This document shows positions 14,431-40,700 of a stretch of DNA of 60,539 nucleotides, in pieces. Each line of letters starts with the position of its first letter. Position 1 is the stretch's first letter. This stretch comes from Perkinsus chesapeaki (Eukaryota; Perkinsozoa; Perkinsida; Perkinsidae). The DNA lies in assembly GCA_013115145.1 (NCBI GenBank), contig JAAPAO010000154.1:1-60539 (forward strand). The letters run 5' to 3'. Under the pieces are notes generated by a model, which was given only the letters and a program-made list of their open reading frames with translations, was not told the DNA's origin and made no database searches. Position numbers and translations under genes: made by a program.

Positions 14431-17160
14431 CTAGTCTCGCTCTCCTGGTCGGCGCATTGTTGCAAAAGCGTTTCGTGGTCGTCTATAATCTACACGATCA
14501 AAGGAAAATACGGTATGCACGCATGCACAAGCTCCACCCTCCACTACACTTCTGACTATCTCCTTCGCCTCATAAAACATATCCATCTCTCCATTAGCCT
14601 CAATGAACTGCCACACATACGCCTTATGATAAAACAACTGAGACATCAGCCATCTCCGTCACTCGCCACGAAATTCCCAGACTACCTCTAAGAACTTCTT
14701 GTACTGCCTCAAGAACATGGTTCTAACAGCAGTGGTGTTGGCCAGAAGACACCCTTGTCGGTCGCTGGGGGCCATACAAGGCTTGCCATCCCCTCCAGTG
14801 GGGATAGTCGGAGGGACACCCACCACACCAACTTTGAAGCCAGATTCTTATAAGACAGATTTATCAACTATAGCCTTTCCGATTCCTACGTATCCAAGGT
14901 AGAAATCTGAGCGCTGCTCGATAGCTCGCCTTGGGGTTACAAAGACCATTGATAGCTTGCATGGCATCAACCTAGGACAACGGAGCCGATCGAACGAGGG
15001 CGATAGGAACGCTTACGGCCTGCATTGGCGGACCAACACCATTGGATCCTTTAGTATAGCGGGGATCAGTACCTCTTGAAATGCGCTATCCAGGAATCGA
15101 ACCAGGGACCTCCTACCTCAACAACACGCAAACACTGAGGTAGCGATTGAGCCGCAGCGTCGGCCCAACATCGCACAGAAAGCTCTTTGGCTCGAAGAGG
15201 TCAACAACAATATCTTTCGTGGAGAAAGATTCATGCCTGAACCTAAGATTCTAATACCAGCTCACCTTCCCGTTACCTATGCCGAGAAGCATGTCGCACC
15301 GGCGAAAGAGAAATAATAGGATATCGATACACCGGCGTTGGAACCTATATTAGTTCACAGGCTTACTCGACCCAGCAGCCCTACTATATTATTCACAATC
15401 TCCACCAGACTCGCGTTAATCATCGACTCGAATCGCAACGAAGTCGTGCAAGCCGATACGACTTGCGAAATTAATCTGTTGAGGTGGTAGAATGTCTGCA
15501 AGGAAGTAAATTGTGCGATTATTCGAGAGTTGGGACTGACAGGATTCTTCACAGTGAGTTGATCTCGACATATCTTATAGGCTGCTTGATTGTCCAGCAT
15601 CAGTGATAGGTCACAAACAGACTTGCTATACGCGGTAGCGAACAAGCAATTGTAACTGATAGAGACAGTTCAACCTTGTGACCCTCCACAGATCCCCTAC
15701 GGTTCGACGGCCGAGCTGCTATAATCCGCGCTGGGATACAATACAGGCTCAAAGATAACCTGAGATTAGCTAAGAGCCGCTTTTGATCCGCTGGGTCAAC
15801 GCGAGTGGGCCACGAAAAAAGGTGAATTCTTCGATATGTCAGGTTATAGAGGTACAATGGTTCCCATTGAGGTAAAAGCACGGGCTCTCCGAAAACCTCC
15901 AAGGCCCCCCTACACCAACTTCATAGAAGTGAAATTTATCCTATCAAAAGGTATAGCTTGCTGTTAATTTCATTCGCCACGAGCCTTGCGTATTACCTTC
16001 TTTTCGAACTGCTCCCTCAATGCCTCCAGAAACTCGCAGCCGATTCCAGAACCAGTACCACCACCAAACGAACGGAAAGTCTAAACGATACAGTAATACC
16101 GACAAGTCCCGAGGAAGATTCCTACAAAGAATCCAGCAAGATTGGAGCATTTATCAGCTTCCTTCCTCAACCTGTCTATCATCTCATCTACTATATGAAA
16201 CCTACGCAGGGAAAGAGCAACGGACAGCTAAAGGCTTCTTATCGAACTTCAGCTAACTTTCAGAAAACGGAACCCGACAAACCCAACATGTGTTGAAGAA
16301 ACACACACAACCGACAAAAACACCTGTCAATTCTACAGTGAAGAGAGAAGCACCAAATTAACAAATGTTGTATTTTCTCCAGTCCTGGTGTGAAGCTATC
16401 TCCCATTTTTCTCAAGTTTCAGTACTTATTTCCATATCTTTCGGCTATTGCTATTAACTTTGCACAATTCGTTGATCTTACTCAATCGCTTGCGTTCGTC
16501 CCTCAAAAAAGTTGCTACGGCAGTCCTGCTTATATGCCATAACCTGCTCCGGACTATACAGGTAACGCCACTTGGACCGAGGGCCCATTATTTCATGTTT
16601 CGAACCTGATCCCTGGTTCGATCCCTGGCAAGGGCATTATTATATCACTCGGATCTGTGTCCATAAACAGGGTGCGAGGAACATGCTGGCCTGCTGGTGT
16701 CTCGTGGAAGAATGTATTAAAGGGGTCTTCCATCGAGCCGATGGATTCATCGCCTGGCATTGTACCTGAAAAGCTGGCTACACTAAGACAATATTTTATA
16801 TAATAATCCAGTTACAATAACTCAATGTCTATCTGCTATTTAAATAGTATGTACGGGCAAAGGGAATCTTATAACGTATACGAGCAGTCTGTACAGCAGA
16901 TATTGCTTGTAAAGATCAAGTACATGGTATTAGTCTAATAAAGCTAAATACCATATGAGCCACAAGTTGGTTTCACAGCTCACAGTAAGTCCTTAAGGAA
17001 CATTCCACACTCTGAATGACCCTCTAGGAGGCACAGCCCAAGAATACTCCATGCTCCTACCGTCAGGCAGAATACCATGCTCCATACAGAACAGCTCCCA
17101 CACCTTCTGTCCGACTGCGCACCCTGCCTGACCAAGATGGCAGGTTATCACTTCACGCAT
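14431..17160 (-). CDS. Highly divergent alpha-tubulin paralogue with a basic C-terminal tail
   Basis: It starts at the ATG at 17160: [27 protein letters not shown]. Later exons give [26 protein letters not shown], the nucleotide-binding signature [10 protein letters not shown] (near 16060), VEPYN (near 15700), [15 protein letters not shown], a VEIVNN segment (the alpha-type catalytic Glu region), [17 protein letters not shown] and [16 protein letters not shown]. These follow the alpha-tubulin order throughout. The residue matching acetylated Lys40 is Glu (MPGDESIG). The usual acidic EEY-type tail is replaced by [20 protein letters not shown]. At least ten short introns are used, two of them tRNA-like. 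Polymer-forming function is uncertain given the divergence; a specialised isoform is inferred. Confidence 0.85.
15075..15116 (-). other. 42-nt tubulin intron made of a tRNA-like 3' half (sense)
   Basis: The intron sits between codons for CVLLR and GTD, which are continuous in other alpha-tubulins. It begins GTAGGAGGTC, continues CCTGGTTCGATTCCTGG (T-arm with B-box), then ATAGCGCA (acceptor-like) and ends TTTCAAG. Nothing else is in it. The T-stem has one central T-T mismatch. Confidence 0.75.
16606..16648 (-). other. 43-nt tubulin intron made of a tRNA-like 3' half (antisense)
   Basis: The intron separates DTDPS from [12 protein letters not shown] and joins in phase 1. On the plus strand it reads CTGATCCCTGGTTCG, then ATCCCTGGCAAGGGCA, then an AT-rich tail. 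It shares the CCCTGGTTCGAT core, including the mismatched T-stem, with the sense intron at 15075-15116. Confidence 0.7.
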
Positions 17161-17323
17161 CAGATATACTTCTGATAGAAAAACCATTCTTTTGCCCCGC
17201 ACTTCAACGCAACACTGAATGAGCAACACCATGAGACTAATTATTAACAGGCATTATCATGCCGTCGCAATCCCTTACTTCGTCGCTTCTTCATCTCCGG
17301 TCATCTCACCTGCACTATCCAGC

Positions 17324-18030
17324 TCAAGAGCCAGACTCAGCCGCCTCACCAGGAGCATCACGTCGATCTACCAAATGAACCACATTATTATCTCGCAAAG
17401 CCGGACAGTCCCGAAGCACGTACCTGAATGAAAAACAGAAACAGGGAGCTCACCAAGGAGCTTACTCATTCTTCAGCTCCTCTCCCGAGTGCAGTAATAT
17501 CTGCTCTTCAAGAGGTACACCTGATCAGTAAAAACGTACGATGTTTTACACCACCTTATCCTCGAAGGGAAAACAGATGGGGGACAGGCTTGTCACAGTC
17601 GAATTTTCGGGGCCCTTCTTTTCCATATTGCTTAGCCAGGTCCCAGGAGAGTCGAATTTTCGGAGCCGTTCTCTTAGGTCTCAGGTTCTCTCAGGTCCCA
17701 GGAGAGGAGTTACTATTCCGGAGCAAAATCCGGCGGAAATGTAAGATTCCCGCCTCGGTTTCTTGAAGCTCACTTGCCTGTCTTTTTCATAGTATACTTC
17801 TTCAGCATCGACACTTTGTCATTTTGGCTTATTTCAACCCACACTGTAGCAGCTGTCTTCACATTTACCACAAACAGAGTCAATGGGGGAAGCGGCGGCG
17901 GTATTACTTCCACTGGCATTTGAAATACAACTTCCGAGCTATCATCCCCCACGGGAGCACACAACACTCTGTAAAGAAACATACGAACCGGATAACGGAA
18001 TTTGTTACAGGTTAAACTCTCAGTGGACAT
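17324..18030 (-). CDS. Ubiquitin-like domain protein
   Basis: Three exons. Exon 1 (18030 to about 17780) begins MSTESLTCNKFRYP and reaches VVNVKTAATVWVEISQNDKV then MKKTG. Exon 2 gives VPLEEQILLHSGEELKNE. Exon 3 gives YVLRDCPALRDNNVVHLV and ends AESGS at the TGA at 17324-17326. The order beta-beta-helix, then G-V-P-x-x-x-Q-x-L-L-H-S-G-E-E-L and a final H-L-V strand matches ubiquitin (GIPPDQQRLIFAGKQL ... LHLV). There is no C-terminal Gly-Gly, so conjugation is unlikely; the fold probably acts as an adaptor. Exon 1 to 2 joins correctly only with a GC-AG intron (donor GCAAGT). Confidence 0.7.
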
Positions 18031-19745
18031 AAGGAACCTTAGTTGGCATTTAGTAAATACTCAACCGACCGAGAAAGGCAGCGCAAACAACAGTTGGAAC
18101 GATGACAGTCCTAACGGGTTGCGCAATAATTATTGAGAGGAGAAATTAATGAGGTGTCATAGTATAGAGGATGCAGCGCCGCATGGAGCGCTGTCGACAG
18201 GAACAACAATAAATACAAGGAGCCGGTAGTAATAGTCAGATGGGAAAAAGCGACAACAGTAGTGGCCAATAGGATAACTAAAGACGACTGTCAAAGTCCC
18301 CCAGACAAAGGACTTTGGACCTATTGGTGCCGCTAGTGGCATCGAGGCTGCTGCTGCCTAGAATATATAAAACAAACAACGTCGTCGTCCGGTAAATCAA
18401 GATTGGATACACAAGTTAGTACCAACAATGACTGTCGACGACGAGGTGGGAAAAGATAACCATTTCAGTGAAAGTTGAAAAGCTCGGTAGTTGGGCTTGA
18501 AGTCCGCATCATCGCATTTGCACCTCCTCGAAGCATGCGCTTACTTTGAGCCCATAAGCATGTGAGGGCAACGGTGGTTAGTAGAATACAAGAGCACCAC
18601 GTCTCTCAGGGAAAAACTATTGATCAGAGATCGCAAGCTCCCCCTGAACGTGACGATTGCCGCATTGTAATTGAAGAAAGCAGGAACACAATACAATGGC
18701 AAAACGAATACGATTCTGCTCCAGTAGGAGCTAGTACTGCGATAGAGAGGATCAGAAACCACGAAACGCATTCGCACGCACAGACAATCTCGATGATGCT
18801 GATGATGCGTAAAGAGACGAAAAGATCAGCAACACCAGCAATGACGGTGGTCTTGATGTGACCTACAAGAACTTATTGTCAACAGTCCGCGCTTGTGGCA
18901 GGATTGGGTAGTGTGTAAGGATAGGGAAACGAAATAGTTATGGAACAAGTAACCAACCTTGGACGACAACAATAATAACCAGAACAACAGAGAAGCAGCA
19001 GCAGCAGCAACAACTAGGGCAGTAACGAGAATGATTATTTTAATGCCTATGATGGTGATTGAGTAGATTGATAGGAGGATATCCACTTATACCAGAGATT
19101 TATCATAATGGTCCATGTGATAGGCCCAAATAATGCCACTGGTAATCAGTTTGCTGAATTGTCCTCCTTTCTTGACTCTCATCTAGACGAGATAAACTTA
19201 GTAGACAGTATTGGTAATAGTATTAGTAGTTCAGTATGAAGGCGAATCGTAACTTCAACAATAGCAAAAAGGAACGACAATATCAACAGCAAGTAACCGG
19301 ATAGTGGGATTTACTATAACAGTATCGAATATGCCACTGATGCCGCTACGATCATCGACTTCGGAGGCTCCTTTTGTGAAGCGAAAAATGCGGAGTCGAT
19401 CAAGATTGAAAGAAGCGACATCAGAGGAAATACGACTACAACGATGACTAGGACGAGCACAGATCCTCATAATGATGAGTGATGGCTGTTGTTGTTGCTG
19501 CGGTGATGGTGATGATGATGCTGTTTGAGCTTGGTACAGTAGCAGCACCCTGGCGGTTGAAACAACACCATAAAAAACAGAAACTATGGCTGCCGCGGCC
19601 AATCTACCACAAGCTTATACAGAATTTCCGGCACCAATATTGTCGCTGGTAAGACTACTTCTCACGTGATGACAGCGATGAGAAGATAAACAATGAAGAA
19701 CGGCGAAATAGAGAAGACCGTGAAGAAGAGGAATGAGACGACACT
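18031..19745. other. Intergenic region with triplet-rich low complexity
   Basis: It contains many CAA/CAG/GAT-type triplet runs, for example GCAGCAGCAGCAGCAAC near 18992. Frames here are compositional. No family, splice pattern or RNA gene was identified. Confidence 0.5.
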
Positions 19746-20891
19746 TTACATGCCATCAAAAGTCTCCACCTTTATGGAAGCCTCCGGTTCAACGATTTGT
19801 TCGCTACCAAGTGCACGAGCAAGCATTGCATCAGTTGGCTGACGGAATACGACGAATCCAGTCTTAGGTGGGACTCCACGACGAGCGGTGCATCTTGCTT
19901 TGAGAGGCAGCATAAGAACGTGCTCAACTGCTCCGTCGTGACCAAGTACAGTATCAAAGTAAGCCTTAAGCTTAAGACTACAACGAGCCCCTAGCTTATG
20001 GCAACGCTTAACCATCAACACTCGAGCCTGACATTCAGCTTCATCTTGAGGAAGCAACATCTTAACATCACCCAAAGCCATAACACCACAAATGCTTGGA
20101 GTCCCATCAGGCATCTCACAAATCTCATCGATCTGCATAAGGTCCTTTGATCCAGGAATAGATACCAGATCATTAGTTCCAGGCAGAACAGGGTTGAAGA
20201 AGCTGGTTACAGTAACACGAGAACCCAGGCGGCCCGGAGTGCACAAGTAGTCGGCCTCCTCTTCAGTTCGCATAACAGCCACACACACGGCACAACGAAT
20301 GTCATTTAGACTGGTTGAAGTTGGACTTATAACCAATAGAATACGACTGGCATTACTGAGCTGATCAATAATCCAATTTGCAGACGGTGGCATAGACATC
20401 AATCTTGCATGTACGGCAAGCATAACCCTCTTGTTCGTAGACGATTCCAAAAGGGGACGAACCGCGTCCGTTAAGGACTCTTCATCAGCAAAGAAAGACA
20501 GGTCAGGAGTAGCGAGATCACCAAGCGGCAGAGTAAGTCCAGTAGAGGGCTTCGTAGCGTTATCGGCTGTGGTGCTGATGCTGCTGACACTATCTTCCAA
20601 GTCCTGCAAAGAGGTCTTGAGGTACTCAGACGCCGCTAGTAGGTCACTTTCTTTAGGACTCTGGCAACGGTCGAAGTCGAAAAGAGAAGAGTCCAGGTTG
20701 AAGCTGCCAGAGCTGACGGCACTCTTAGATCCATCGGCAGCAGTACTGTTGCTGACAGGGGACGATCCTTTACATGATGGCGACAGAGGCGACGACGGCA
20801 ACCTCAGCTTGAGCTGAGAATCGCCGAGGGACTGCGTAGTCGAAATGACCGAGTCTGCCGCAATCGTTGGAGAATTAGAGAGAAATTCCAT
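19746..20891 (-). CDS. Intronless 381-aa protein of unknown function
   Basis: One uninterrupted frame runs from the ATG at 20891 (MEFLSNSPTIAAD). The first 140 residues are Ser/Thr/Pro-rich and probably disordered, with an acidic segment (FDFDRCQSPKESDLL). The rest (about 145-381) is compact and mixed, with hydrophobic strands (RVMLAVHARLM, RILLVISPTS, KTGFVVFRQP) suggesting a folded alpha/beta domain. No catalytic motif, signal peptide or membrane segment is obvious. A single exon of this size is unusual here, where most genes are cut every 100-200 nt. Translation could also start upstream at 20933 only with a non-ATG codon. Confidence 0.7.
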   Translation of the reverse strand: MEFLSNSPTIAADSVISTTQSLGDSQLKLRLPSSPLSPSCKGSSPVSNSTAADGSKSAVSSGSFNLDSSLFDFDRCQSPKESDLLAASEYLKTSLQDLEDSVSSISTTADNATKPSTGLTLPLGDLATPDLSFFADEESLTDAVRPLLESSTNKRVMLAVHARLMSMPPSANWIIDQLSNASRILLVISPTSTSLNDIRCAVCVAVMRTEEEADYLCTPGRLGSRVTVTSFFNPVLPGTNDLVSIPGSKDLMQIDEICEMPDGTPSICGVMALGDVKMLLPQDEAECQARVLMVKRCHKLGARCSLKLKAYFDTVLGHDGAVEHVLMLPLKARCTARRGVPPKTGFVVFRQPTDAMLARALGSEQIVEPEASIKVETFDGM

Positions 20892-20933
20892 TACGGAGAA
20901 TAAGAAATAACAACTACTATCACTACAATACAT

Positions 20934-21473
20934 CTACCACCTCTAACAACCTAAATCACCCACTACACCTATAATAAGCAGAACCCTCAAATCCCTGTTA
21001 AGACGCTACTAGAGACAACATAACACCTTCTTAACAACCATCACACAATACAAGCTAAAGGCACTACCTTCGACAAACAGCAAAAAAGCTATCGTCCCTT
21101 CACACAGTCTATCCAGCCTCCTCCATACTACTAAAACACAAGACAGTAAATATACATAATAACACCGTCATGCTATAAGGCTGCTAATCGACCTTAATAG
21201 TATCAACCAACACAACTGTTAACAACACAGGGACAGCCAAGCTGCACGCGTGCACAAACCACAAACGCAAAAGTGGCAAGGAGCTCCCCTTCCGCCGAAA
21301 ACGCCATAATTAGGCTTTTTAGGCAGATTTCCTATTGGTGTGGCCTCACCTTTGCCAAGTAAGAGAAATGGCTCAACTAAAAGGGGTATTTCACGTATAG
21401 ATACCATAGCGAAAACCTTAGTGAGGCCAACAGCGGTCAAGCAGCCGCGTAACACAAAACCTGTCTCCCTGAA
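20934..21473. other. Intergenic, A/C-rich
   Basis: Mostly A/C-rich on the plus strand. A minus frame at 21219-21455 could be read as an extra pecanex exon, but the recognised pecanex C-terminus ends before it. Confidence 0.45.
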
Positions 21474-24400
21474 TCAAACACCATATGTTACATGTAAAGG
21501 ACTTGAGACATACACTGGATATTCATTCAACTGCACTATTAGATTCCTCAACATCTCTTCATGCTGCTGTATACCGTACCTTTCATCATCGCTATTAGCA
21601 AAGTAGGTCAAATCCAACGCTGTGGCGCTCTGTATGGCATCAAATGCTGTCTTGTTCATACGAGCAACACCAACACTTGAGGCTTCCTTCCACACAAGTC
21701 GTATGAAACCATCCACTCTATTATTAGCTGAAACCAATAGAGAACACAGTGTGGGTATTCCCTTTGACATCGCCTCTGCCCAGCTTGCACCGCCAGCATC
21801 ACCGACGAACCTGATCATACCAGAGGAGGACTCGAGTCCAACCAACGACCTACTTGACAGAACGCTCGCAGTCTTCCACAAAGTCGATAGAATCACCGAG
21901 AGGCACGTGCTCGGAGCCCGTGGTGATGAAGGTCTCCAGTCCTACATAAACGAGATAGCATTAACAACGGAGCAAGTTTCTCACCAAGAACGCATCCCCT
22001 CTCAAAAGCTTCATCTAAAACCGAAGCGTACGAGCTCTCGATGTTCTCTGTCCAGGCCTTGCCCACTAAGGCAGATCCCCCAGCCACCGGGTCTGCACCA
22101 AAGCGATCGGGTAGTCTGGCCTTTGACGAAAACAGCATAAGCCATAGTCGACCTTGAAACCAGCAACAATGGGCGAAGAATTCGCCGAATACCCACTAAG
22201 CTTGTCACTGGGCATGACAGACAGCGAGTCGGCAGTGATAGGATTGGACTCTTCCATAGCAGACCTGACCAACTATCTACCAAGCAGCCACAGTTAGCCT
22301 TACCCATTGCTATCTACTCCACCCGGCAACGGCAGAACATCTTCCAGTAAAGCGTCCAAGTCGTCCTGAATAGAGATCTCAGCCCGCTGGGGAGGGACCG
22401 CAGGGTCTTCTTGCCGACAGTGAAGAGCAGGATCACTTTCAACTATCTCAATACCGATGTTATTCGCTAACTCATTCGGGAAGTATCTCAGAGCCCTTTC
22501 GAAAAATGACATATCCTCGATGTTAACCTCGAAAGTATCTTCCAACCGTTTCAGCATCACCAACAGCACCATACCAAACCCCCGCCAAATTGCACGTAGA
22601 CAACCCTCCGAGTTCACAACACCAGCCAAGCTCATACGCGTGTACTGGTACTGCCCCACCGTCAGAGCTTCACTCAACGGTCTCAGCGCCCATACACTTC
22701 GGTTTCCAGCGAACGCCGCATCGACCGCTCTAGCCTCGGCTTGATGACAGCTGGTCTGGTCCGCAAGCTCCGAGAATCTAAGCTCGACCGTGCACCCACC
22801 ATACCATCTTTTGGTCACCTTTCCGATGAAGAGCATCCCCTCCTCAGGCTCACGGAACAACAACAGATCCTCACGTAGAAATAATCTTCCCAACGACTTC
22901 ACCAAACCACCGTTGGTGACCAATGATCGACAGAGCAATCCCTGCAAACCGACTACAGTCTCATTGCCAGTTGCTAACGGGACATGTGCTGGTAGCCACG
23001 GTCGAAAGGCAAATAGCGGTGCAGTGAAGAGCGGCAGAGGTGTGTTGTCGTTAGAGACCAAGCAGGCCACCGGTAGCATTACAGGGGCCAGACAAGCGGA
23101 CACTTCTTGTCCTCGGTGGGCCTGCTTTGGCGAACGAAAAGAATGATAAACCAGAGCAGCGCCAAACCAGACACCGCGAGAAATGGTTAGAAGCTTCTCC
23201 AGAGCAAAGTCCGCAACCATTAGCAATACAGGTACCTCAGGAAGGCCATCAGGGTCCTCAGTATCATACCGAATCACTAGGAAGATGCCAACAACAGCAA
23301 CCGACAGGCCGAAGGGGACACCACGACAACCCGACGTCGCCGAGATGAAGTGACGGAGGGATAGCCAAGAGATGTACCAACTGTCAGTGGCCTCATCGAC
23401 CGCCAATACAAGCACTAGACTGACAAACATAAAGAATGTTGCTAAGTAGCGGAGCCCTATATGAGCAGAGCCAAGCAGTACAACCTGGGCAAGTCCAAGG
23501 CCGGCAGCTGCCCACCAAACCAAAGGTACAGGGTCCACCACGAAATGTAGAGTAAAGCCTATACCTATACCAGCACTACAGAGTAGCAAATGGCGAGCAA
23601 TAGCTTCAAGAGGGCACCTGGAGCGTAGAGGAGGGAGCAGGCCAATGCACACACCGGTGAAGGATAATAGAACCAGATGAACATCAACCAGTAAGAAGGC
23701 TAATGGAGCCACTAAGGCTAATGGAACGATCGGCAGCGGATTCACTGCGCCACAAAAATAATAAGCTGCGAATTCGATCAACCACAAGAGAGCATCTTCA
23801 AATGGTGGAAGCAGGCCGACTGCCCACAGAACCGGGCAAGCCGCTAGACCAGCATAAACGATCAACCCTAGCACATCATTGCCGACCTCAACGGCAACAA
23901 AACCACAAACCAACAACGGCAAAATTGTCAGAGACCTGGACAACGCGGAGTCCGTCATACCAGGGCACACTCGAGGTGCTAGCTCTCGAACCGGCCACCC
24001 ATACAGTAGAGAACAACCAGCAATAGTAGCCACAGAAATAGCGGACAGGATAAAGTACAGCAACCCTTTCACGGAAACCCAGGCCAGCAGACCAAAGTTG
24101 ATAAACACTAGGGGGAGCCGGAGCCACATTGAGCTGCCATTGAATCTCAGACCCCACGCTAGGGCGGCTAAACAAGTGCTAGTTACTTCACCAGCGTCAT
24201 AATCGTTCCAGAATAAACCTGTCGCCATGGTCGAACCAGGGACCTTTCGCTTACCAACCGCTGCATTCAACATCGCAACTAATAGTACACACACAACTCC
24301 CCACGTCGCGAATACAGCAGCGAGCTGCCAACAGTCAAGGCCGCTGGCCATCTGCCTGGCAACTACCAGGCCAACTAATGGCCCAAAGTAAACCACGAAC

Positions 24401-24537
24401 TGCACTACAAAGGCCAGCAACCAACAATGCCCCGATGACGGAGGCCTGAGACCGCCGAGGAGGGTATTAAAGAAATACTGCCGAAGTGCGAATGAGGCAT
24501 GAGCATCCTCGAGAAGACTACCGGCACGCGGACTCAT
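21474..24537 (-). CDS. Pecanex-family multi-pass membrane protein
   Basis: The first exon (22314-24537) starts MSPRAGSLLEDAHASFALRQ and has about 12-14 hydrophobic segments up to residue 490. Then comes a soluble part with LLFIGKVTKRWYGG and LADQTSCHQAEARAVDAAF, the TSCHxxEA motif of the pecanex C-terminal domain. It splices through 22264, 21985 and 21854-21941 to the last exon 21474-21810, which ends RYGIQQHEEMLRNL and YPVYVSSPLHVTYGV, matching the conserved pecanex end (PIYVSPLTTSY). Junctions checked join in phase; the second intron (near 22165-22210) is the least certain. Pecanex proteins sit in the ER or endomembranes. They are linked to Notch signalling in animals, while their role in protists is unknown. 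Confidence 0.78.
24219..24254 (-). other. In-frame 36-nt tRNA-like segment in pecanex exon 1, possible intron
   Basis: On the coding strand it begins GTAAGC and ends GACAG, perfect splice sites. It contains AGGTCCCTGGTTCGACC, the same T-arm core as the tubulin introns. It has no stop and is a multiple of three, so it reads as 12 residues (KRKVPGSTMA within). Confidence 0.5.
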
Positions 24538-25682
24538 AGAAGTACATGCAAAAATCTTACACTAAAAATTATCAAGTTGGATAAAATGCTGAAAGTAAGT
24601 GTAAGGAAAGGCAAAGCCGCCCACGAGTAAAAGAGGAGACCGATGACCGAAACAAACAATGGGGAAAACGGCCTCTGATCTATATGAGATCAAACACTCC
24701 ATGCTCTACCGTGATTCAAGCTATTATCCATCACTAAGGTGTATAGGCTTTTAAGTTCTATATGCGTGGCAATAATAATAATATAATACAGTAAACCGGT
24801 AACGTATATATTATGCTGTATAATAACAGTAAATGAACAACCTCATTAAAATAACACACACAATAGAAAATAAATGTTTATTCGATACACTTGGAAGCTT
24901 CAGTCATCATCTCCAATAGCAGAGTGGTTGCCCTGGAATCAATGCACCTCAAATTGGAGCCAATGAGCATTTCGTGAAGCTGTGTGAGTAGTCAACAAGT
25001 CCATAGCGGACATCCTATGTACCTCCCGTGCTGTTGGACTATCAGTCAGTTTCATATTGTAGTCATGCCTTACTTACTCATCCCAGAGTGATGATGAGGA
25101 TGCAGGTCAGACCTTTTACTAATACGTCATCATAAGTCCATTTATAACACTCAACTCAATAAAACCAATAATAAGCACGAAAAATAGATTCAAACAGTTT
25201 CAGATGATTCCTGCACTAGTTCCTACTCCGATAACCTGAAATGAAGAAACCTTAGACCACCCGCCGAGATTTTGCATCACACAAGACCGATCAACTTTAT
25301 ACCAAACTGCCGACGAAGTGTAAGAGAGCCAAAGTCTAAAGTCTGAGAAATTAACGGGTTACGTCCCCAAATTGCGCTAGAGTCCTTCACCTGACCGATC
25401 GATAGACCCTCAAAACCAGCGCTCGTGAACTTGATGCTTGGTTTAGATCACTCACCCGGCAAGTAGAATAGCAAGTAATCCGGGGTTTCGGGTTTTCGGT
25501 TTTCGGGTTTTCATATGTATTTAATCTAGGATTATCAAAGGTCAGTCTCTACTTACATAATATATTTCAGTCTGATCGTCTCGGACGTCTGCGAGTTGCT
25601 GCCGCCTTATCAGCACTAGGCTTTGTCTCCGTCATTTCTGAGCACACAAAAACTGTCTCCTCCAAGTTGGAGACTCCAACTA
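24538..25682. other. Intergenic, AT-rich
   Basis: No gene is clear. A minus frame near 25595 reads MTETKPSADKAAATRRRPRRSD then stops; it may be a short exon or chance. At 25481-25515 there is a short TTTCGGG-type tandem stretch. Confidence 0.4.
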
Positions 25683-26330: not shown

Positions 26331-26903
26331 ACACAGTCATCAATTTAGGATAACAACGATCACAGTGGAAAGTAATGGGACATTAATTCAAGCTTGAGAT
26401 GGAAAGCCATTAACATCATCATCTACTGTGAACTAAACGATCGACTAGATTGGTTCTCAATAAACCAAGTTGAAGTTGCTATATAATAATTCATGATCAA
26501 TTCAAGGTAGAAGAATGCCATTAATAATAAACAAATTGAGTGAACGAAGTAAAGTCATCAACTATATAGGAAATATATAGAGGCACAGCAGAGCGTATCT
26601 TATCATAGCATCTAACCAACCACAGATGAAGCAAACTACAGCATTTCAGCCAAGTCAGATAAATTCAATTACTATTTATAATGATGATCCGCTCTGAATT
26701 CTCTACCCGGATTTCTAATAATACACCGGTTAACGTTCCATCACCTCCACCTGGAGACGATGCAGTAAATATAAAATGGTTAAAAACTAGATCAATGAAT
26801 CTACGGTAGGTCCCCTAACTGACCATGGTATTGCAATCACTATCACAATCACTAGTATTATCAATAACAAGTTAAATCTCTAAAGCCCCCGACTTCATCC
26901 CTG

Positions 26904-29900
26904 TTATACTACCCCCAATCCTAAATTGACCGACTCCTTGACCATTTCCATCAACGCAGATGCAGCCGCTACTTGGCCACGGTCACGATACCTAAAAGGA
27001 AGGCGTGACGCAGAGCTCCTCTGAAGATCTAATCAACAAGAGAATCTCAAGAGCTAGGGCTTGTAAACTGCCCCCAAAGCTGAGATCTTAGCTAAGATAC
27101 TACTCAATCAAGCAAGACAAGAGGCAAAAATACACTGAACTCTCACTATCCCATACATCGTAATATTTATCCATTCCTTCTCATTGCATTATTAACAGCA
27201 GCACGTTGAACTACACCAAACCTTTACTACCAATTTCATCACAATACCCAGTATACACCACAGCACGTCCAAGCAAGTTGCCTGGCAGCAGCAGTTCAAT
27301 CGACCTCATCTACATAACGTCCCGATAAAGCACACCACACACAATGCTTTAGTGATGAACTTTGACACGAAAAAGCAGCTATTTGGCGCCGACTCGCTGA
27401 GCAATTAAATATTCCGAAATCTTCCATCGCAAAAAATATTTCTCTCCTCCGCATTCTATAAATATTTTTTGCGACTCTAAATTCTGGAAAATATCCCAGA
27501 ACACGGTAATTCTGCCAAAAAAATTTCCCAAATTTTCCGGGAAATTTTCCCGATACAAAGATTTCATACCGCTCCTTCCTCCACTTACAACAAGAACACA
27601 TTAACAGCAATTACCACTATAATAGTGAAGTAGATGGAGAATAGGATGTTGGAAAATTTAACACAGGTATCCGAGTACCTAAATACATTTCCTGGCGCGC
27701 GGGAAACAAGCAGTGCCTTACCAATCACAGGCAAAGTCAGTGAATTTGTCTATAAGATAGAGCACAATTACCAGTACAGTAACTCCAGCGAATGCTGCCA
27801 ATGACTTGTCCATACGCCGCTTGTTCTCATCCTTATAGTAGTCCAATAGACCCTAATAACAACAATCATACCAACTTTCCTTCAAATATGCTTTATATCA
27901 ATACCACCCCAAAAAAGCCAAACGACTCTCTTAACTTTTTCTCGCCACTCAGTAGCCGCAAATTCAGTCACTTTAGACCAGCGCCAATACGCCCTCATTA
28001 ACCATATAGATGTATAACCACTACAGACACATCAAGCTGTAATTTTTCTAGCATATTTTCTGTTGATTCCTCTCCCTTATAGACTTCCAACACTCAAGAG
28101 CTACTTGATAATAAATATATATGAGTACCATATCAAACAGAAATCGATGCCGTCCATAAGCCTAACATTCCCCCTCCCCTCTATTACATCTATTTCCTTA
28201 ACAAGCTCCTCCTTGGTCTTCTCTCTTTCATCCTATCACATCCAAGTGACCAACCTAAACCAATAGCCAACCCTACATCCGGTCCAAACAGCGTCTGTTT
28301 AGAGAAGCTCTGCAATGCCATAGTCTTTGCTTTACGCGCAGCTTGCTCCAGTTGATCTGGCTTGATACCACTGCCATTCTTAGGCCTGATCAATCATCAC
28401 TTTACACTATACCATTGAGCTAGATGTTTTCACACATATTAATAGCAATATAAGGATTTTCAAACGACCCTCAAGGAATCTATACTCTAAGCCAGCCTGG
28501 AGGATCCTACGCGCCTTGCTACGAAATGGACTTACGAAATATTTACATTAGGGAAGACAAGCGCATTCGCGGAGCGGATAAAGGGGTGAGGCATAAGTCT
28601 CATCATCGCTCCTCAAACTCCTGTAATATACCTTGTACAACTTTACACTCGATAAAGATGCCTGAAACAGTCTGGTCTCGAGTCCGGACACTTCATTGCT
28701 ATGTAATGGGAAGCCTACTCTCAAGGCCCTTCCATATCAGATGCATATTCATTCAAAATATAAAAAAATGCTGATATAGCATAAATTAAATAATATATAG
28801 AAATAAAAGTAGTACTAATAAAACTAATCAACACCCTAAATCCTCAGTTAGCTCATCCATCCAAGCACTTGCCAATTAACCCCTCCCCGTCCCTCATTTA
28901 TTACCCCATCGCGGCCTCCATATCAGATTTATATTCATTTATAGCTTGCTCCTTCCCCAATAAATTACTACTGCGCGCCATTGCCTGTGTAAACGTCGCT
29001 GCTGCCGGCACTGCATTAGCAAACGCCTAATAACCCATTACCGCGCGCCACGAAATTCCCACCAATACCTCTACGAAGGCGTTAACAACCGGACCAAACG
29101 TCTGAGGCGATAAGTCCTTTCCGAGAATGCTCTTCGCGTGTAGGTGGGGGTCCGTGAAGACAGAACGCACATAGAAATCCAAGAATCTACACAACTCGGT
29201 ATCCAAAGGTCCCCGGTTCGAACCCCAGCACCGCCCACCTTATGAAATCCGGATCAATATCTGCTAGCTTGCCCGACCATCCCTTCTTCTGAATCATAAG
29301 ACCAGGATGAGGCAAGCAGAAGCACGATACACTTTCAAACATTTTATTAAGTGCAACGGCCGTGGAGTCTTCTCTAACTCGATGCTCATCTAAAGTAAAT
29401 ATCACTATTGCATCATCATCATCATCAACTACAAAGCGCCAGCAGCTGGATAACAGATATCCAAAAGCAATATCCCACCAACGGTGCGCTGGAATTAAGA
29501 TATATGATATTCCAGCCGTTACGAGAATGCTATATGAACAATACTGATAAAATATAAAATGGCACACTAAGATGATAATGAATTTAATGATAGTAGTAAG
29601 TTGAACATCGATAAGAATCCCACAAAACAAGTTACCATGACAATCACAGTAGTAAAGAGCAGCAAATATCATGTTCTACTATAAATACAAATGACGGCCC
29701 ACCGCAAAAATTTAAAGAATGAAAAGGAAAATCGCAGAAACCACGCGCGAGGTGTAAGCCCCTTTTCTGCCGCCATTTATTATCACCCATATGCTGCGCC
29801 AAATGCTCATTCATCTGAGCCACACACTCCCTCACTGTCATATCATCATCGAAGTTAGCCCAATCACGCACTAAGAACCTAACCAACAATCAAAGGCATT

Positions 29901-32900: not shown

Positions 32901-33068
32901 GCCGACTGGTAAATTTTGAAGTCTTGCAATTCAAAGAGATTCTACGAAAACTGTTGTCATCCCTTTCCATAATATAACCTCATTATCATCCATTTTAATG
33001 GTGACCAACTGTAAAGGCCTTCCATCAACCTTAGATACCGGAGCAGACCCAGAGGGATCTTGTGACAT
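26904..33068 (-). CDS. Atlastin/GBP-family dynamin-like GTPase
   Basis: Atlastins are ER membrane GTPases that fuse tubules. The first exon (32979-33068) starts MSQDPSGSAP. 32304-32437 has the P-loop MGAYRTGKS. 31390-31480 and 30538-30641 give VLMDTQ and GAWDSKMTKEQSATVFGL with QIYNISKQIQED. 29787-29878 has FLVRDW (the atlastin RD motif). 29239-29389 has SCFCLPHPGL and KLADIDPDF. Helical exons follow (RFLDFYVRSVF, MARSSNLLGKEQ, LEYRFLEG, ALQSFSKQTLFGP), then a hydrophobic segment (FAGVTVLVIVLYLID) and the last exon YRDRGQVAAASALMEMVK ending at TAA 26904-26906. Only one clear membrane segment is seen where two are usual. Introns are larger than elsewhere, and one contains an assembly gap. Confidence 0.85.
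28405..28422 (-). other. tRNA A-box-like motif in an atlastin intron
   Basis: The minus strand reads TAGCTCAATGGTATAGTG, the classic tRNA D-arm/A-box, 20 nt before the acceptor of the exon beginning near 28385. No B-box follows, so it is a 5' relic at most. Confidence 0.45.
29187..29238 (-). other. 52-nt atlastin intron carrying an antisense tRNA-like 3' end
   Basis: Donor GTGGGC and acceptor TGTGTAG bound the intron between SCFCLPHPGL- and RFLDFY-encoding exons. On the plus strand it holds AAGGTCCCCGGTTCGAACCC followed by an acceptor-like GCACCGCCCAC. Stem pairing is poorer than in the tubulin introns. Confidence 0.5.
31099..31386. repeat. Tandem repeat of about 27-28 bp in an atlastin intron, with an assembly gap
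   Basis: Units read ATTCCCCTATTAAATGATAT and continue with a TTAACCT tail. They run to 31182, are interrupted by Ns at 31183-31279, and resume to about 31386. The true copy number is unknown. Confidence 0.9.
31183..31279. other. Assembly gap (97 Ns)
   Basis: A run of N inside the tandem repeat; its length is probably nominal. Confidence 0.99.
31800..31950. repeat. Degenerate AGGTAATAA-type tandem repeat in an atlastin intron
   Basis: AAGGTAATAA-like words of about 10-12 bp recur more than ten times (GGTAATAAC, GGTAATAAG, GGTAATGAA). They create spurious Leu/Tyr/Phe-rich minus frames. Confidence 0.75.
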
Positions 33069-33440
33069 ATTAACACTTATTACCACTGAAAGTAGGACAA
33101 TCCAATGCTAATGCGAAGCGTTCGCAACAAAGGGCGTCAACAACAGTTTTATTAATTTTGTGGCGCGTGAGAAATCCCATGCAAGCTCCACACACCACGT
33201 GACACTGTGCGGTTGGTATGTCACAAGAAGAATTGCGACTGTTACATTTATATACTGGACTTGAAATCTCGTAATGGAGGACCTGAAGAGCGTTGCTAAA
33301 TAGTTTAATTGTTATGTTAATAGTTGGTGGTCACTCTATCAACCTGCAAAGAATCTTTGTGACGTTAATAGTCGTAATTTACTTCTTTCATTTGTATTGG
33401 TAGTTGATGGTCACTTTATCAACCTCTAAAGAATCTTTAA
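33069..33440. promoter_or_regulatory. Divergent intergenic region at the strand-polarity switch
   Basis: The 372 bp separate the atlastin start (minus) from the SPX-transporter start (plus). A pair of similar stretches near 33315 and 33400 (GGTCACT-TATCAACCT then AAAGAATCTTT) is a local duplication. No TATA box or known motif can be assigned. Confidence 0.4.
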
Positions 33441-36400
33441 ATGAAGTTCACCTATCAACTAGAATACAACGCCTTTGGCCCTTGGCATGATGGTTATATT
33501 CAATATAAGAAGCTTAAAAAGTTGATAAAACAGCAAAGACAGAACTTAGCATCATCTGAAGAAGGAGCTACTACTACACCGGAGGAGGCATGGAAGGTAG
33601 TAATAATGTACTTTATAGTAGGTTAATAATAATAGTGTAATAGTGATAATAAATTAATGATAAAATAATAATAAGAATAAATGATAATTAAATTATAATA
33701 TTAATACCATAGTAATAGTAAATGAATGTTGAGGTGATAATAAAATAATAAGTGATAATAATAAAGTTATGTCGACTATTGACATATACTTTCCCACGAT
33801 CTTCATTAGGGAGCGCTTGTCTGTTTTGAACTCATTTAATATCTTTTATAATACCTCTCCAGGATGCCTCAATCTTGTCGGCTTCCTTATTTTCCGTCAT
33901 TCCTTCAGGCCTTCGAGGAGGCAGTCGATGCGGAGATGGACCGGATATCAACATATTTCTATACAGTAATAAAATACGCCACCAAAATCACTGAGAGCTT
34001 TGGTGCTAAGATTGATAGTACTAGTAGCATTTATGCCGAAGTATCTTGTACATTTAAAGCAACACGAAGATATTGCGTAGAATTTCATATAGTAGATCTC
34101 ATGCTTGATCAACATTAGTTATATCAGACTGGGAGCATCTATTATATACTGAGGATCCTTTGGACTGGATACGCTAAGTCGGTGTGTCCTCCTCCTTAGA
34201 TATACGCCCGGCTCACAACATCGGTCCAGCAGCATTTAGCCCCGATGGAGGCGCATAAGCATGTTGAATCTAAACATAGGAAGGAGTGTATTGAGCTATT
34301 TGCCGAACTTAATGAACTTAAGAACTTTGTACAGCTCAACTCAGAGGTAATATAGGGCGTTGTTGGAGTACAATGGCTAAAAGCAATGGGATCCTGCGGC
34401 AAAAGGGCCCGCAAAGAATAACTTTTCGTACGTTCAACCTCGACAAAACGGATATGCTGGCGTTCGAGACGTCTTGGAAGTGACTTTCATGGGTGTAAGA
34501 TATTAGAAGGCACTAACAATGGCACTGTAAATGGTAACATTGTGAAAAACGGTGTAAGAGGTCTGGTTACAAAGGGGAAAGGTTTTTAACTGATCTTGCA
34601 TAATAAACTTAAAAGGGACATTCAATGACAATAACCATAGCGTCATAAGCTATGTAGCTGTTAGTTTGACAAAGCAAACACTTCAAGCTGGCACCTCCGA
34701 ACGGAATCCGGATACTACTTGGACGTTTCCCGTGAGGCAGTTTCTCTTATAGCAATTGGATCTGACATTTGTAGAGCTGATAAATATCGGCGAATTGGGC
34801 TCTTGGGAAATAATGATGAAGTTGGAATTGAAGCAGCAGCTCAGTTGAGTAACGTATGAAGTAGTGTAGTTGGACCATATTGATAGGATATGGACTCAAC
34901 GCGATGTTGCCAATAGAATTGAGGAAGCAATGTGGCTGGTGGAACTGCTCGCATTGCACCTGCATATTTGATTTTAGGGCGCGCGTAAAATCGTGAAGAA
35001 GTTTGATAAGTTCAACGGCACATCTCACTGTAGTGAGTTTATGGCCACGTGTCGACCATTGGTGGCAATGCAGCATGAGGCACAGACTAATATACCAGCT
35101 ATGATAGCAGATATACAAACAAGGTTATAGCAGGGAAGGGGGTAATGAGAAAATCATGTGGGGAACTGTCACGCAGTCACTATGCCACCGATACCGATGC
35201 GGGGTTAGGTTACCATACAGGTTGGGGCATCCGAAGAGGTTGTCAATAGCTCGTAGGAATATCTCCTATGAGAGGTATTTCATCCGATGACATGCGAGGA
35301 GCGCCGCGAGCCTCTCGTGGCGGCTCTTTCTTTAGTGTTGGAGAGGTTGGGAAATATCTGAACAACGATACAGTTGAACTTGTCAGGATTAGTTCTGGCT
35401 CATGCTCCAAAGTTAGCATTTTTATATTAGCTACTTTTTTTACCCTTTTTGTCTGTTGCTTGTGGAATCGTGGCAAATTGCTGAATGAGCTATAATGTAG
35501 TAACTCAGACCTCGGGCCTATGACTAAAATCACGACGTCCAACAACCTGTCTCTCTACTCGGTCCCTGAAGTTGGGAAAGTGTGTATTGAAATAGTAATG
35601 AGTCTAATTAAACTGGCGCTCAAGTAAACGCTTTTTATATGTTGAAATATGGGCATGAGTGATTCGAGCGATGGCGGGAAACAACTGATGTGGGACCCGC
35701 TTCCGTAGGGATTGAGGCATACGTGTCCACGGTTATATCGTTGTTGAGAGTCTTGACGGTTTCCATTCGTTGTCAGTTACGCTGAATACTACTGCAGCGG
35801 TGATGTGTCCTTGGCGCTTGAGGAGCTCTCAAGAAGCTTATCGGAGCTGTTAGTATGGGATAGAGGGACAATATGGCATGATCTTATCAAACTTGAGAGG
35901 TATTATTATGGCCATGATTTGAAGGAAATGTGGTATAATTAGGCAGCGTACGAGGCTCGGAACTGTGGCGACTGGAGGGAAACCGGTGAAGTCGGAAGAT
36001 ATGCCGATGGTGAGGCAAACGACTCAAACGCAGAGCGCTGCGCCGCCACCGGAGCTGCTAGAAATGGGACGATCGAAGAGCACTGAGAGCCCTCCGGCAA
36101 AATTATTACCGCTCAATGCAGCGGAGCTGGCGGGGTGTCTAAAGAGGAAATGGGGGAGTATCGTCACTTACACTGTTGTCTTTCTGGTCTTTATTCTTCT
36201 GCTGTCATTGGATATCCCTGGGATGCCTGGAGCGGCCCGAAGATGCTTGGCAGTGTTGTGGATCACTAGTGCCTTCTGGTGCCTTGGAACTTTACCACTA
36301 CATATAACAGCATTGGCAGTCCCTTTATTGGTGGTGGTGGCGAGGTGCTTGCCATCAGCGGAGGGGGATAGACAGAAGGCGGCTCTGATGGCTATTAAGT

Positions 36401-37650
36401 CTATGTGGTCTGGTTCACAGTTGATGGTGTTGGCTAGTTTTTCTTTGGCGGCGGCTTTGTCGAAACTAAGGCTCGACAAGGAGATCGCCTGTGTGTTGCT
36501 GAAGTCGGCTGGCGGCAAGAGTCGTGTTCGAACCCTCCGCATGATGATGCTTGTGGCCTATATTGTCTCCGCGGCGGTCGGCAATGTTGCGGCGAGCGTG
36601 CTCTGTATGAGTATAGTCTCCCCTATACTAGATGAGCTGCCGCAGAACCTGCCCTCCACTTACTCATATGGTCGGGCGATGCTCCTGTCAATTGCGTTTG
36701 CGTGCAACATTGGTGGCATGACGAGTCCGGTGGCGTCTCCTCAAAATGTGGTAGCCTTTGCGACTTTACACACCGATTATGGGCTGTCATTCTCACAGTG
36801 GTGTGGTATAGCTATACCGACTTCCTTCCTGTTGTTGGTTGGTGTTTACTTTGTCACTCGCCCACGGTATCATCGACGCCGGGCGAGTCGAGTGGCGACC
36901 CAACAGCAGCAGCCACTTCTTCAAGAGAGCGCCAATCCGGACTACTTGGCTCTACCTCCCAGGCTACTGGCATCTGCCAGCGGGGCGCTCTTCGGTAACT
37001 GGCAGCGTACGGTGGTGATTGTTATCGTTGTGGGATGTATCATAATGTGGCTTTGCTCGGGGCTTACTTGTGCGGTTTTCGGTGACACTTCTTTATCGGC
37101 TCTGGTCCCTCTGGTGCTGCTCTTTTCGATTCCTGGTTTGCTCACCAAGGCCGACTTCCTTGCCCTGCCGTGGGATGTCTGTTTCCTACTCGCGGGAGGC
37201 TCATGTCTCGCTCTGGCGGTTAAAGATTCCAAACTGCTTGAGATTGCGTCGACAGGAGCATCGCATATCCTTCACGGTGCGCCCCTGTGGGCATGCATAG
37301 TTGGCACTGTTACGTTTGTGACGCTTTGTTCGACTGCTGTCTCCCATACTGCTGCCGCTAATGTTTTGATGCCTTTCATTTGTGCGCTCGGAGATGAAGT
37401 TGTCCCCGAAGGCGTTAAAGGTGGTGTCACCCTAATTGCTATGCCGGCTGCGTTGGCCCTCTCCGCGGGCTCGGCCCTCCCAGTGAGCTCCACGCCGAAT
37501 GTTAATGCCACAGCGATAAAGAGGCAGGGGGACGATAACAGGCCGTGGTTGCAGCCGAAGGACTTCATCGAACCGGGATTGATCACGTCTCTGCTGGCTG
37601 TTGTTATTATATCTGGCATAGGGGCGTTGATGAGCGAGGCAGTCGCCTAG
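33441..37650 (+). CDS. SPX-domain SLC13-type phosphate/anion transporter (yeast Pho87/90/91 architecture)
   Basis: The first exon (ATG 33441) reads MKFTYQLEYNAFGPWHDGYI..YKKLKKLI, the N-terminal SPX motif. Further SPX exons are at 33891 (AFEEAVDAEMDRISTYFY), 34200 (IELFAELNELKNFVQLNSE) and about 34977 (RKIVKKFDKFNG, the Lys-rich inositol-pyrophosphate-binding helix). A linker exon begins near 35247. Another near 35850 gives LLVWDRGTIWHDLIKLER and joins in phase to the last exon (35943-37650). That exon has about 11-12 membrane segments, IGGMTSPVASPQNVV and LPVSSTPNVNATAI, the two SNT-type sodium/substrate motifs of SLC13/DASS carriers. The combination matches low-affinity phosphate transporters whose SPX domain senses inositol pyrophosphates. 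Substrate is inferred. The intron at about 34350-34975 is long and one linker exon edge is unsure. Confidence 0.8.
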
Positions 37651-37737
37651 TAGTATTGTCGAAACGTTGTTTCTTGGAAGAGTGTTAAGAGTGTTGTTGG
37701 TTGTGTGGGATGAAGGTGTCGGTAGGTTAAGTCGATA

Positions 37738-40700
37738 ATGTCGAGTGCTGGCAGTAGGGAGAGAGCTGATGGGTTGAAGGCCGAGGGCAATAAGATGTAT
37801 CATGAAAGGAAGTTCAAAAAGGTCAGCAAGATTCAGGGAAGTGGTCCCAGTGCGAAGATACATTAGAACTTAAACTGATGTTTTGTTGGGCTAGAAGGAG
37901 ATATGAACGTTGGTTCATATTTGGGCTTCCAATCATTGAAAACCTGAACTGCTTCCAACTACGCTCATTATGGGCCGAATGTCCGATGATACTTCATGGC
38001 TCATTCCGGTGACTATTTGGAACGACAAAAGGAACTTGGTAAAGATTCCCTTCTAGCGAGGGCAAGCCAATTTCGTATAGTGGGCAGCTTAGCAGAAATC
38101 TGACAAAAAGATTGCGAGTGCAATCTGGAAGTGGCTCAGCTGCGCGCGGAGAAATCCTCTTGCTTGGTGGAAATGATAGGTGGCCTGCATCTTTATTCAG
38201 ACATCGAAAAACGACAGTCAACATAAATGATATTAACGACATTAAGATTGCCTTTCCACGGCTTTGCGCTCCGCGGATTTGTTGAAAGGATCCTGATTCC
38301 CTGAAAGTCCTCTCTTCACTGTTTTCCTTTCAACATGGTTTCTAATGGTGTATTAATATATTGTACTCATCAGGCTATCGAGCTGTACACCGACGCTATC
38401 GATATTGATGATAGCGTCCCTGCTTACTACTCCAATAGGGCATTGGCTAATGCAGCACAGGAGAGATGGCAAGAGGTAGGGATGGTAGTCATGTTATTAG
38501 TTTACTGTTAACGTAATTGTTGTATAAGGCAAGTGTCGTTCCAATTCACTGCATACTATAAAGGATTGTCACGGCCGCTATGCTTTTATTAATGCCTATC
38601 AACTCCGCAGCTCAATGCTGTTATAAGCAATATTTGTATCTTGTCATTTTTTCATACCGTATTTCCCGTTTTCGCCCCAACTTTCTGGTATACCCCAGTC
38701 CATGTTAATTTAGGTTTATGACGATTCCTTCCACATATTGTCGAAGCTTGATAAGACTCATGAGAAGGCGATCTATTGGGTGGTCCAAGCGAGCAAGGAG
38801 CTCGGCAAGCCCAAGGAGGAGGTAGTAGGCCGCCACTCCATCATTTGAAAGGTTTAGAGCCCCTTTCTGGTCTCTGTCAGTTGCTTAAGTCCCTGCCGGA
38901 CAGCGCTGCTGCTATCAGTAATATGTGGGGGTCTGATGATGATGAACATCCTACCGATAAGCAACTGAAGTATGCTGAAGAGTAAGGGATGGCGGTATGA
39001 TTTATATTACTGTGAGAGTGACTTCAGCGCTGGAATGAATAGTTAAATAATTATACAATACGAAAGATATAGAGATGCCTGCTAGGGACGGGTTAAGTGT
39101 AGCGAGGTGAATCCTTTTATGGGTAATCGAGTATGGAGAATTCAATAGAAAAGGAATTAGCTCGAAATTCGACATACTTATCGATATTTTCACCCGTCCA
39201 GACCGCGCATCTCTAGATGTCGCGTACTGTACCTATTTTCATTTAAGCAAGTAAGCAATGTAAATAGTGAACGCCCGAACCATAAACTCACCACGAAGCA
39301 CGGCGGATTGGCTTAGTTGGCAGAGAGATATAGTGCGCTTCTATGATCTGTCGCATGCGGACTAGCTCCACTGGAGTCAGGACACATTCCATCCGTGCTA
39401 CTCATCAAAAAGAATTATAATAAATGCGCGAGTGACTTCCACGCTCCCTACGCTTCCAGGAACAACCACGGGGAGGTCTCTGGGCTATATTCCCGTACTT
39501 CTTCATTAATTGTATACGGCCCTGAACTCGCTCCATGACTGGACCTACACTCCAGTGAAATATTTAGTGCTCGTCGCCGTTAATATTTCCCCCTGATATG
39601 AGTAAAGTTTTGGTGGCCGCGACCGCCGCTGTTGCCATTAGAGATGAAGGTATATACAGAAATGCGAGATTAAGGTTCGATAATTTCCGTTGGCCGCCGG
39701 CAATCTTCTAAAATACGAAATTTCTCTGGGGTTAGAGTCGTGCGCTGAGGTGAATCGTATACCACTGGGAAGAGCTACAAATTTCTGATCCAGTGATAAT
39801 AATTTCATCCTGATATTCGATCGATATCTAATCCAGATCGGCGGTGGACATTTTTTTTGACCAGTGTGTATCATCAATTATTGGGATTATCTACTGAGGG
39901 AATGTATTATAATAAATTGACTAGTATTACTGTACAGTGAATTAAAGTATATACTCAATGTTATTGTACGTAATCATCAATAGTTATTATGACATATTAA
40001 TAAGACTATAAATTAATTCGTAGAAGCAGGAGCAGCGGTGGCGAAAGTAGAATGAAATAGGATATGAATGATGTTGTTTGGTCAGGTGGGGTGTGAGGGT
40101 GAGTGAAGCAATAGTCAAAGGAAGGATGGACAAGCTGCAGAAGATTCTAGAGAAGATACCAGTAGGGTCCTTTCCTTCTAATGTTAAAACCGGTTACACT
40201 GCACTGGCGAAGGTAGGTCGCAGGTTCGAACCCCGGTGAGGGCATTTTTAATGTTAGTATTATATGTCGCAAAGGGAGTGGAAGCAAGGGCTCGAGTGCT
40301 TCCGGAAGCTATTGGAGTATCAGGAGAAGCGATTGCCGGCAAATGAGCCGGCAACGCTGGACGAGTTAGCGACTACTTATAATAATATCGGTGTCTGTGA
40401 GAAGCATGCTGGAAAGTGAGGAGGAGCCTTGGGAGGGAGGGTGACGACGCTTGTTGTGACATATGTATGGTGAAGATCATCTTCGGATAAGCTTACCGAT
40501 ATTCTCACCGTGTGAAATCCTCAGTAGTATATAAATTAATGTGCATTTGATAAGTATGCACAGTAGCGGTTCACCTGCAATGATGACAAGGGAAACGACT
40601 TAACTTATATAGTAAGAGTGTATACTAATATACAGAGCTAAGAACTGACAGTGGTATTAACTTGACATTCGCCCGAGTACACTAAGTTGCTTGCCGCTCT

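Follow-up and report, generated by a model that had tools for sequence, protein, structure and literature searches.

Introduction

A tRNA-like B box and a terminator-like run of T residues are features of tRNA-derived short interspersed elements (SINEs) and tRNA pseudogenes. A B box also reportedly lies within the ~50-nt spliceosomal intron of the U6 small nuclear RNA (snRNA) gene of S. pombe, as Frendewey et al. are said to have described in 1990. Here we describe a family of short B-box elements in Perkinsus chesapeaki, a protist parasite of bivalves. Our starting point is one contig of 60,539 nt (JAAPAO010000154.1, assembly GCA_013115145.1; hereafter the window), in which four protein-gene introns of 42-52 nt consist of little more than such an element.

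The closest described systems are the extra-TFIIIC (ETC) sites of yeast, human and C. elegans, B-box loci that are bound by TFIIIC without RNA polymerase III (Pol III) according to excerpts of three papers (PMC6950938, PMC11724288, PMC5356446). The same excerpts state that ETC sites of C. elegans are over-represented in introns, many being tRNA-pseudogene repeats (PMC6950938), and that the contacts of tau91 downstream of the B box are conserved across eight yeast ETC loci (PMC11724288). Introners, in turn, are described for Amoebophrya as having direct and inverted repeats and forming sequence families, alongside those of Micromonas and Aureococcus (excerpts of PMC7789003).

The Perkinsus motif is like ETC sites in being a B box outside functional Pol III genes, tRNA genes having been removed from the sample behind its profile and, by hand, from the matches to its scoring matrix, and like those of C. 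elegans in its intron location and tRNA-pseudogene likeness. In contrast to the C. elegans sites, which in the excerpted account have both A and B boxes, the Perkinsus elements mostly lack an A box, have a fixed GGC-A-oligoT tail and nearly fill a 45-nt intron. As in S. pombe U6, a B box is carried in a tiny mRNA-type intron, whereas there it drives transcription of one Pol III gene and here it recurs in many protein genes. With tRNA-derived SINEs and pseudogenes the elements share the B box and the terminator-like T-run, but in most of them the 5′ half and the A box are missing, long stretches common to several copies were not seen, and core and remainder decay unequally. As with Amoebophrya, a related parasitic alveolate, one sequence type makes up many introns, yet neither the repeats nor the families of the excerpted description were found at the Perkinsus introns. 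The open-licence literature yielded no report of introners in Perkinsus or of tRNA-derived introners.

The B-box family is real and genome-wide, and nearest in kind to ETC sites, but in tiny introns. We propose, at a rough probability of 0.48, that its B box is kept by a constraint on DNA, most likely as a TFIIIC site, and is tolerated mainly in introns.

Abundance and anatomy of the motif

The genome searched was the 35.39-Mb assembly of 884 contigs (G000; contigs are cited by C numbers, the window being C62). Palindromic sites were counted on both strands and each pattern was controlled by its own letters read backwards (reversed). The core GGTTCGANNCC occurs four times in the window against 0.28 expected, a count reached by 0 of 100 shuffles. 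Genome-wide the counts are 1877 for the core and 287 for its reversed form. Joined at fixed spacing to the tail GGCATT the core is found 134 times, with 0 when reversed. A position-specific scoring matrix (PSSM) was then built from 23 elements lying outside a local sample of 260.5 kb (the window plus C1:1-200000). At a score of at least 20 it gives 17 matches in that sample, and the reversed matrix gives 0. Chance is rejected as the source of the motif by all four comparisons. A preliminary description of the window had suspected a related family on the strength of shared letters; the family extends well beyond the window, and the shared AGGGCATT to which it pointed is real, being part of the genome-wide tail.

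To define the unit we took 40 of 100 listed genome sites as 135-base pieces, together with 18 sites from the local sample; removal of 12 tRNAs called by aragorn from these 58 left 46 non-tRNA sites. For the PSSM, 9 of 32 fetched non-tRNA sites were left out, as they lacked tail or GGTC features. The conserved unit spans about 33 bp, GGTC.C.GGTTCGA..CC.gg....GGCATTTT, and resembles tRNA positions 45-73 followed by oligo-T, a terminator-like T-run, without the anticodon arm and mostly without an A box. Beyond the nine letters fixed by the search, the 46 sites are enriched for G45, G46, T47, C48 (36/46), C50, C63, G64, G65, G70, G71, C72, A73 and four T positions after A73, so that the order is C48, B box, seven variable letters, GGC-A73 and oligo-T. 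Columns upstream of position 45 show no clear enrichment in this profile. The likeness to a tRNA 3′ half reported earlier thus holds, in C48, B box, A73 and oligo-T; of an anticodon loop supplying the 5′ splice site, also put forward there, no sign was seen.

An A box at variable upstream distance was considered and rejected as a general feature, a best score of at least 8 being reached by 15% of 33 elements, compared with 5% of shuffles and 75% of 12 tRNA rows. A few copies may therefore carry an A box, and the A box plus tRNA 5′ half that mark a tRNA-derived SINE or a tRNA gene are not a property of the elements. Moreover, tRNA and Rfam scans gave no match at the introns, only the tRNA-Thr gene of the window (5404-5477) reaching the gathering score. 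Genome-wide, RF00005 has at least 62 tRNA matches. Among the aragorn calls, one tRNA-Arg(TCT) 3′ end accounts for 21/61 (loci L001-L030); some of these loci overlap, and the gene number may be lower.

By rough extrapolation the genome holds ~2,000 elements. They may be clustered, since 25/71 gaps between neighbouring sites measure 2.5 kb or less against 8.3 expected, although true tRNAs were left among the 88 listed sites behind this count. One local cluster puts five element-bearing introns in 14 kb (C1:128956-142655), their spacer letters being unlike. A DNA search with one intron and its flanks as query returned the self-match alone, and three sets of identical 24-mers have unrelated flanks. 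Separately, one element is near-identical together with its flanks on two contigs (L099 and L100; C34:49200-49324 and C267:36938-37062), which points to haplotypes or a segmental duplication.

Location of copies and evidence for splicing

The window features on which the comparison rests are as follows, with PSSM scores.

15075-15116, minus strand: divergent tubulin gene, GT-AG intron of 42 nt; 33-mer at 15078-15110, sense to the gene, score 31.2
16606-16648, minus strand: same divergent tubulin gene, GT-AG intron of 43 nt; 33-mer at 16608-16640 of the plus strand, antisense to the gene, score 31.7
29187-29238, minus strand: atlastin-like GTPase gene, GT-AG intron of 52 nt; 33-mer at 29208-29240 of the plus strand, antisense to the gene, score 23.9
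40213-40257, plus strand: TPR-like gene model, GT-AG intron of 45 nt; 33-mer at 40216-40248, sense to the gene, score 40.5
24212-24244, minus strand: CCCTGGTTCGA in a coding exon of a long (pecanex) open frame; score 14.1, labelled exon
5404-5477, plus strand: true tRNA-Thr(CGT) gene from tRNA and Rfam scans, for comparison

The four introns agree with the preliminary description in position, in GT...AG ends, in orientation (two sense, two antisense) and in falling within three genes. The pecanex segment CCCTGGTTCGA, counted there as a further member, is judged not to belong: it lies in a 745-codon open frame (22300-24537), differs from the core at positions 61-62 and has a score of 14.1, and is therefore taken as a chance match.

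Introns were modelled with a motif-blind gene finder written for this analysis and trained on long open frames. In the local sample it returned 49 genes with 898 introns, 676 of them 33-62 nt long. Modelled introns are dense and their lengths peak sharply at 45 nt; the donor is AG/GTAAG and the acceptor TNYAG/G (the slash marking the splice site), and introns of 36-62 nt divide evenly by length modulo 3 (230, 229, 213). A rough extrapolation gives ~92,000 short introns genome-wide. Genes of P. marinus are reported in excerpts of PMC3101222 to have one to ten introns, mostly <100 bp. The average of 18 introns in our models exceeds that figure and therefore some models are probably fused or over-split.

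The gene finder places 8 of the 17 strong matches in short introns (12% of the sequence) and 4 in longer ones; 5 fall outside genes and 0 in exons, which make up 49%. Two (34826 and 32532) are true tRNAs. Eight of the remaining 15 lie in or over 42-52-nt GT-AG introns, and 35923 lies in a 64-nt intron; 15078 and 16608 are labelled otherwise, yet are tubulin introns by homology or inspection. After hand correction 11 copies lie in introns of 42-64 nt, one (C1:44966) in a 179-nt modelled intron and three between genes. The earlier proposal that such elements make up most of a short intron, whether sense or antisense, therefore extends to most of the strong copies examined. True tRNA genes, for Arg and Thr, also occur within modelled protein-gene introns (C1:79953-80080 and C1:34799-34996).

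Splice scores were compared for the 23 fetched non-tRNA sites scoring at least 20. The best enclosing intron scores at least 7 for 11/23 (6 sense, 5 antisense), against 436/4000 random stretches, 129/1150 flank-shuffled controls and 362/647 modelled short introns, from which roughly 80% of the fetched elements would be short introns, with a wide error. The contrast is smaller at a score of at least 4, which is reached by 17/23 elements, 43% of the random stretches and 49% of the flank-shuffled set. Weak splice sites were ruled out as a property of element-bearing introns, those of the 11 being of ordinary strength. In one of these 11 (C1:128956-129001) the modelled 5′ splice site falls within the B box.

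Homology to solved relatives across the spliced junctions supports splicing in the tubulin, the atlastin-like GTPase and CCT4. The junction peptide of 16606-16648, an intron that the gene finder over-extends to 16606-16765, aligns to alpha-tubulins (E 7.2e-6). That of 29187-29238, which the gene finder reproduces exactly, aligns to atlastin-1 (E 9.4e-6); its element has an unmatched oligo-T tail, and the last two bases of the 33-mer are exonic. The third comes from CCT delta (CCT4): at C1:11904-11950 the alignment has E 1.7e-11 and gaps of a single residue next to the junction, which no CCT paralog match spans. In all three the element is antisense. Across 15075-15116, which the gene finder leaves outside genes, homology is weak, the alignment to tubulin (E 0.27) reaching two residues past the junction. 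The element of 40213-40257 has the top score of the local sample and the gene finder gives its exact boundaries; the gene model has no homologue at E 0.001, its support being splice and coding score alone.

Conservation within the element

In 40 elements (sites scoring at least 20 plus 7 relaxed local ones) the outer T-stem pairs 49-65, 50-64 and 51-63 are formed in 21, 21 and 14 cases, against 17.2, 21.6 and 16.0 in shuffles, and the fractions of shuffles reaching these counts are 0.12, 0.75 and 0.88. The outer three pairs are thus not above shuffles, and the inner two belong to the search core. It follows that the elements did not arise as recent copies of various tRNAs with intact stems.

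The core is kept more strictly than the rest. A 17-letter pattern of core and tail has 89 exact matches in the genome and 354 with one mismatch, with 1 for the reversed control. Among 11 one-mismatch matches listed, 2 are tRNAs; in the other 9 the mismatch falls 8 times in the tail and once in the core, from which the tail is several times more variable per site than the core. An exact tail with transitions at six core positions finds 56 sites beyond the 89. In rough terms the variation per site is ~0.1 in the core (transitions only) and 0.35-0.45 in the tail, and a number of letters in the stem and the spacer come close to random. In the local sample, 11/11 core substitutions in 9 kept elements are transitions at G52, G57, C61 or C62, and none falls at G53, T54, T55, C56 or A58; one two-mismatch exonic match (T54>A, C62>A) was excluded as chance. 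With a B box that looks constrained, a stem that does not, and about half of the scored copies antisense, a DNA-binding site explains the pattern better than an RNA fold.

Discussion

We hypothesise that the ~2,000 elements are dispersed units of a ~33-bp DNA motif whose B box would be held by a constraint on DNA, most likely as a binding site for TFIIIC, a Pol III factor, at places that have no Pol III gene. Inside genes the motif would be tolerated mainly in introns, and because introns here are ~45 nt long it nearly fills them. A remote tRNA origin of the motif is plausible, and would be old; both TFIIIC binding and a function of the motif are putative.

Several observations weigh against this hypothesis. 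The TFIIIC B-block family PF04182 reaches 21.2 bits in the genome against a cut-off of 22, over 36 positions, so that the match is at most a candidate for the B-box-binding subunit. Short introns (31 kb) are preferred over intergenic and longer-intron DNA (102 kb), for which a plain regulatory site offers no evident reason. Conservation extends to letters that play no part in a B box (GGTC, A73), and the T-run of sense introns can be partly shaped by splicing. When the PSSM threshold is lowered to 12, 8 of 31 matches are labelled exon (0 reversed), so avoidance of exons holds for strong copies only; some of these weaker matches may be real elements or mis-modelled exons. The figures for core constraint come from small numbers, and several one-mismatch local matches may be chance. 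Lastly, nearest-neighbour similarity among 38 elements (sites scoring at least 20 plus 5 relaxed local ones) is 12.74 against 12.27 in column shuffles (sd 0.18), a slight excess that hints at some copying.

A possible but tentative alternative is introner-like gain, in which tRNA-derived 3′-half elements, bearing GT and AG at or close to their termini, were inserted in exons and became introns, intergenic copies being insertions outside genes; the stems would since have drifted and the B box perhaps been kept later. Consistent with this, the element makes up most of a 42-64-nt intron in the 11 local cases, and is not an old intron with an insert. Tubulin matches from three paralogs (two on C717, one on C109) read through the site of 16606-16648 without an intron, tRNA 3′-end letters beyond the B box are conserved, and element density after hand correction is similar in genes (12 in 188.8 kb, 0.064/kb) and between them (3 in 71.7 kb, 0.042/kb), although the numbers are small. 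Against it, the ends of the 11 introns show neither direct repeats or target-site duplications (mean 4.36 against 4.27 in other short introns, P 0.41) nor terminal inverted repeats (mean 3.27 against 3.44, P 0.79), and the distances from the element to both splice sites vary. Upstream and tail letters show no association in the 38 elements (390/500 shuffles reach the value), copies do not align as families over the element and form no clear subfamilies, and identical 24-mers have unrelated flanks apart from the one duplicated locus. Moreover, the two tubulin matches at C717:13840-15687 sit in open frames 465-470 codons long that presumably have no introns, so that loss there is as possible as gain here; the intron-less paralogs fit either. 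The 676 short introns as a whole share 238 pairs of 11-mers against 118-133 in mononucleotide shuffles and 87 pairs of 12-mers against 24-42, many among the pairs listed being simple repeats. Of the introner-like process from tRNA that the preliminary description envisaged, the family and the intron bodies stand, while terminal repeats, clear subfamilies, a paired outer T-stem and a fixed distance to the splice sites were not found; active tRNA-derived introners are not supported by these tests.

It is improbable that the elements are what is left, under neutral drift, of a tRNA-derived SINE or of tRNA pseudogenes, copies of which landed by chance in introns. The tRNA-like 3′ half with its oligo-T, the presence of true tRNA genes in modelled introns and the modest excess of A-box-like scores over shuffles would suit such relics, but most copies are without the A box that most tRNA rows have, and core and non-core letters diverge unequally. 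Furthermore, insertion into a 45-nt intron should give one of ~80 nt, whereas the longest of the 11 has 64 nt, though C1:44966 does lie in a 179-nt modelled intron. A structured, tRNA-like RNA encoded in the introns is very improbable: the T-loop consensus and C48 are those of a T-arm, but the outer stem pairs stay at shuffle level and about half of the scored copies run antisense to the gene. That the motif is chance or its introns mis-annotated is scarcely credible, for although splicing is deduced from sequence and the high number of introns per model compared with P. marinus means that some modelled introns may be wrong, the window and genome counts, the fixed-spacing tail and the PSSM contrast argue against chance, and the homology across junctions (tubulin, atlastin-1, CCT delta) and even lengths modulo 3 against mis-annotation.

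Elsewhere in the window, 54668-55522 and 57753-58607 hold near-identical tandem sets of open frames in the same order, apparently a recent duplication, and the protein encoded at 44996-45895 is 100% identical to the P. chesapeaki hypothetical protein FOL47_002093.

Conclusions

In summary, if the B box is indeed held as a TFIIIC site, P. chesapeaki would have ~2,000 B-box sites, largely in introns barely longer than the site, and intron content would reflect, apart from splicing, a role in DNA binding. This offers a possible route to an introner-like pattern without recent copying, as suggested by negative tests on modest samples. A stronger and doubtful version is that 1-2% of introns are tRNA 3′-half sequences turned introns, now kept in either orientation as docking sites for a Pol III factor in Pol II genes; if true, such introns would form a class set apart by a site for DNA binding and not by a signal in RNA. 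With this system one can ask whether introns can be founded by tRNA-derived sequence, and whether TFIIIC sites affect transcription or the folding of a compact alveolate genome.

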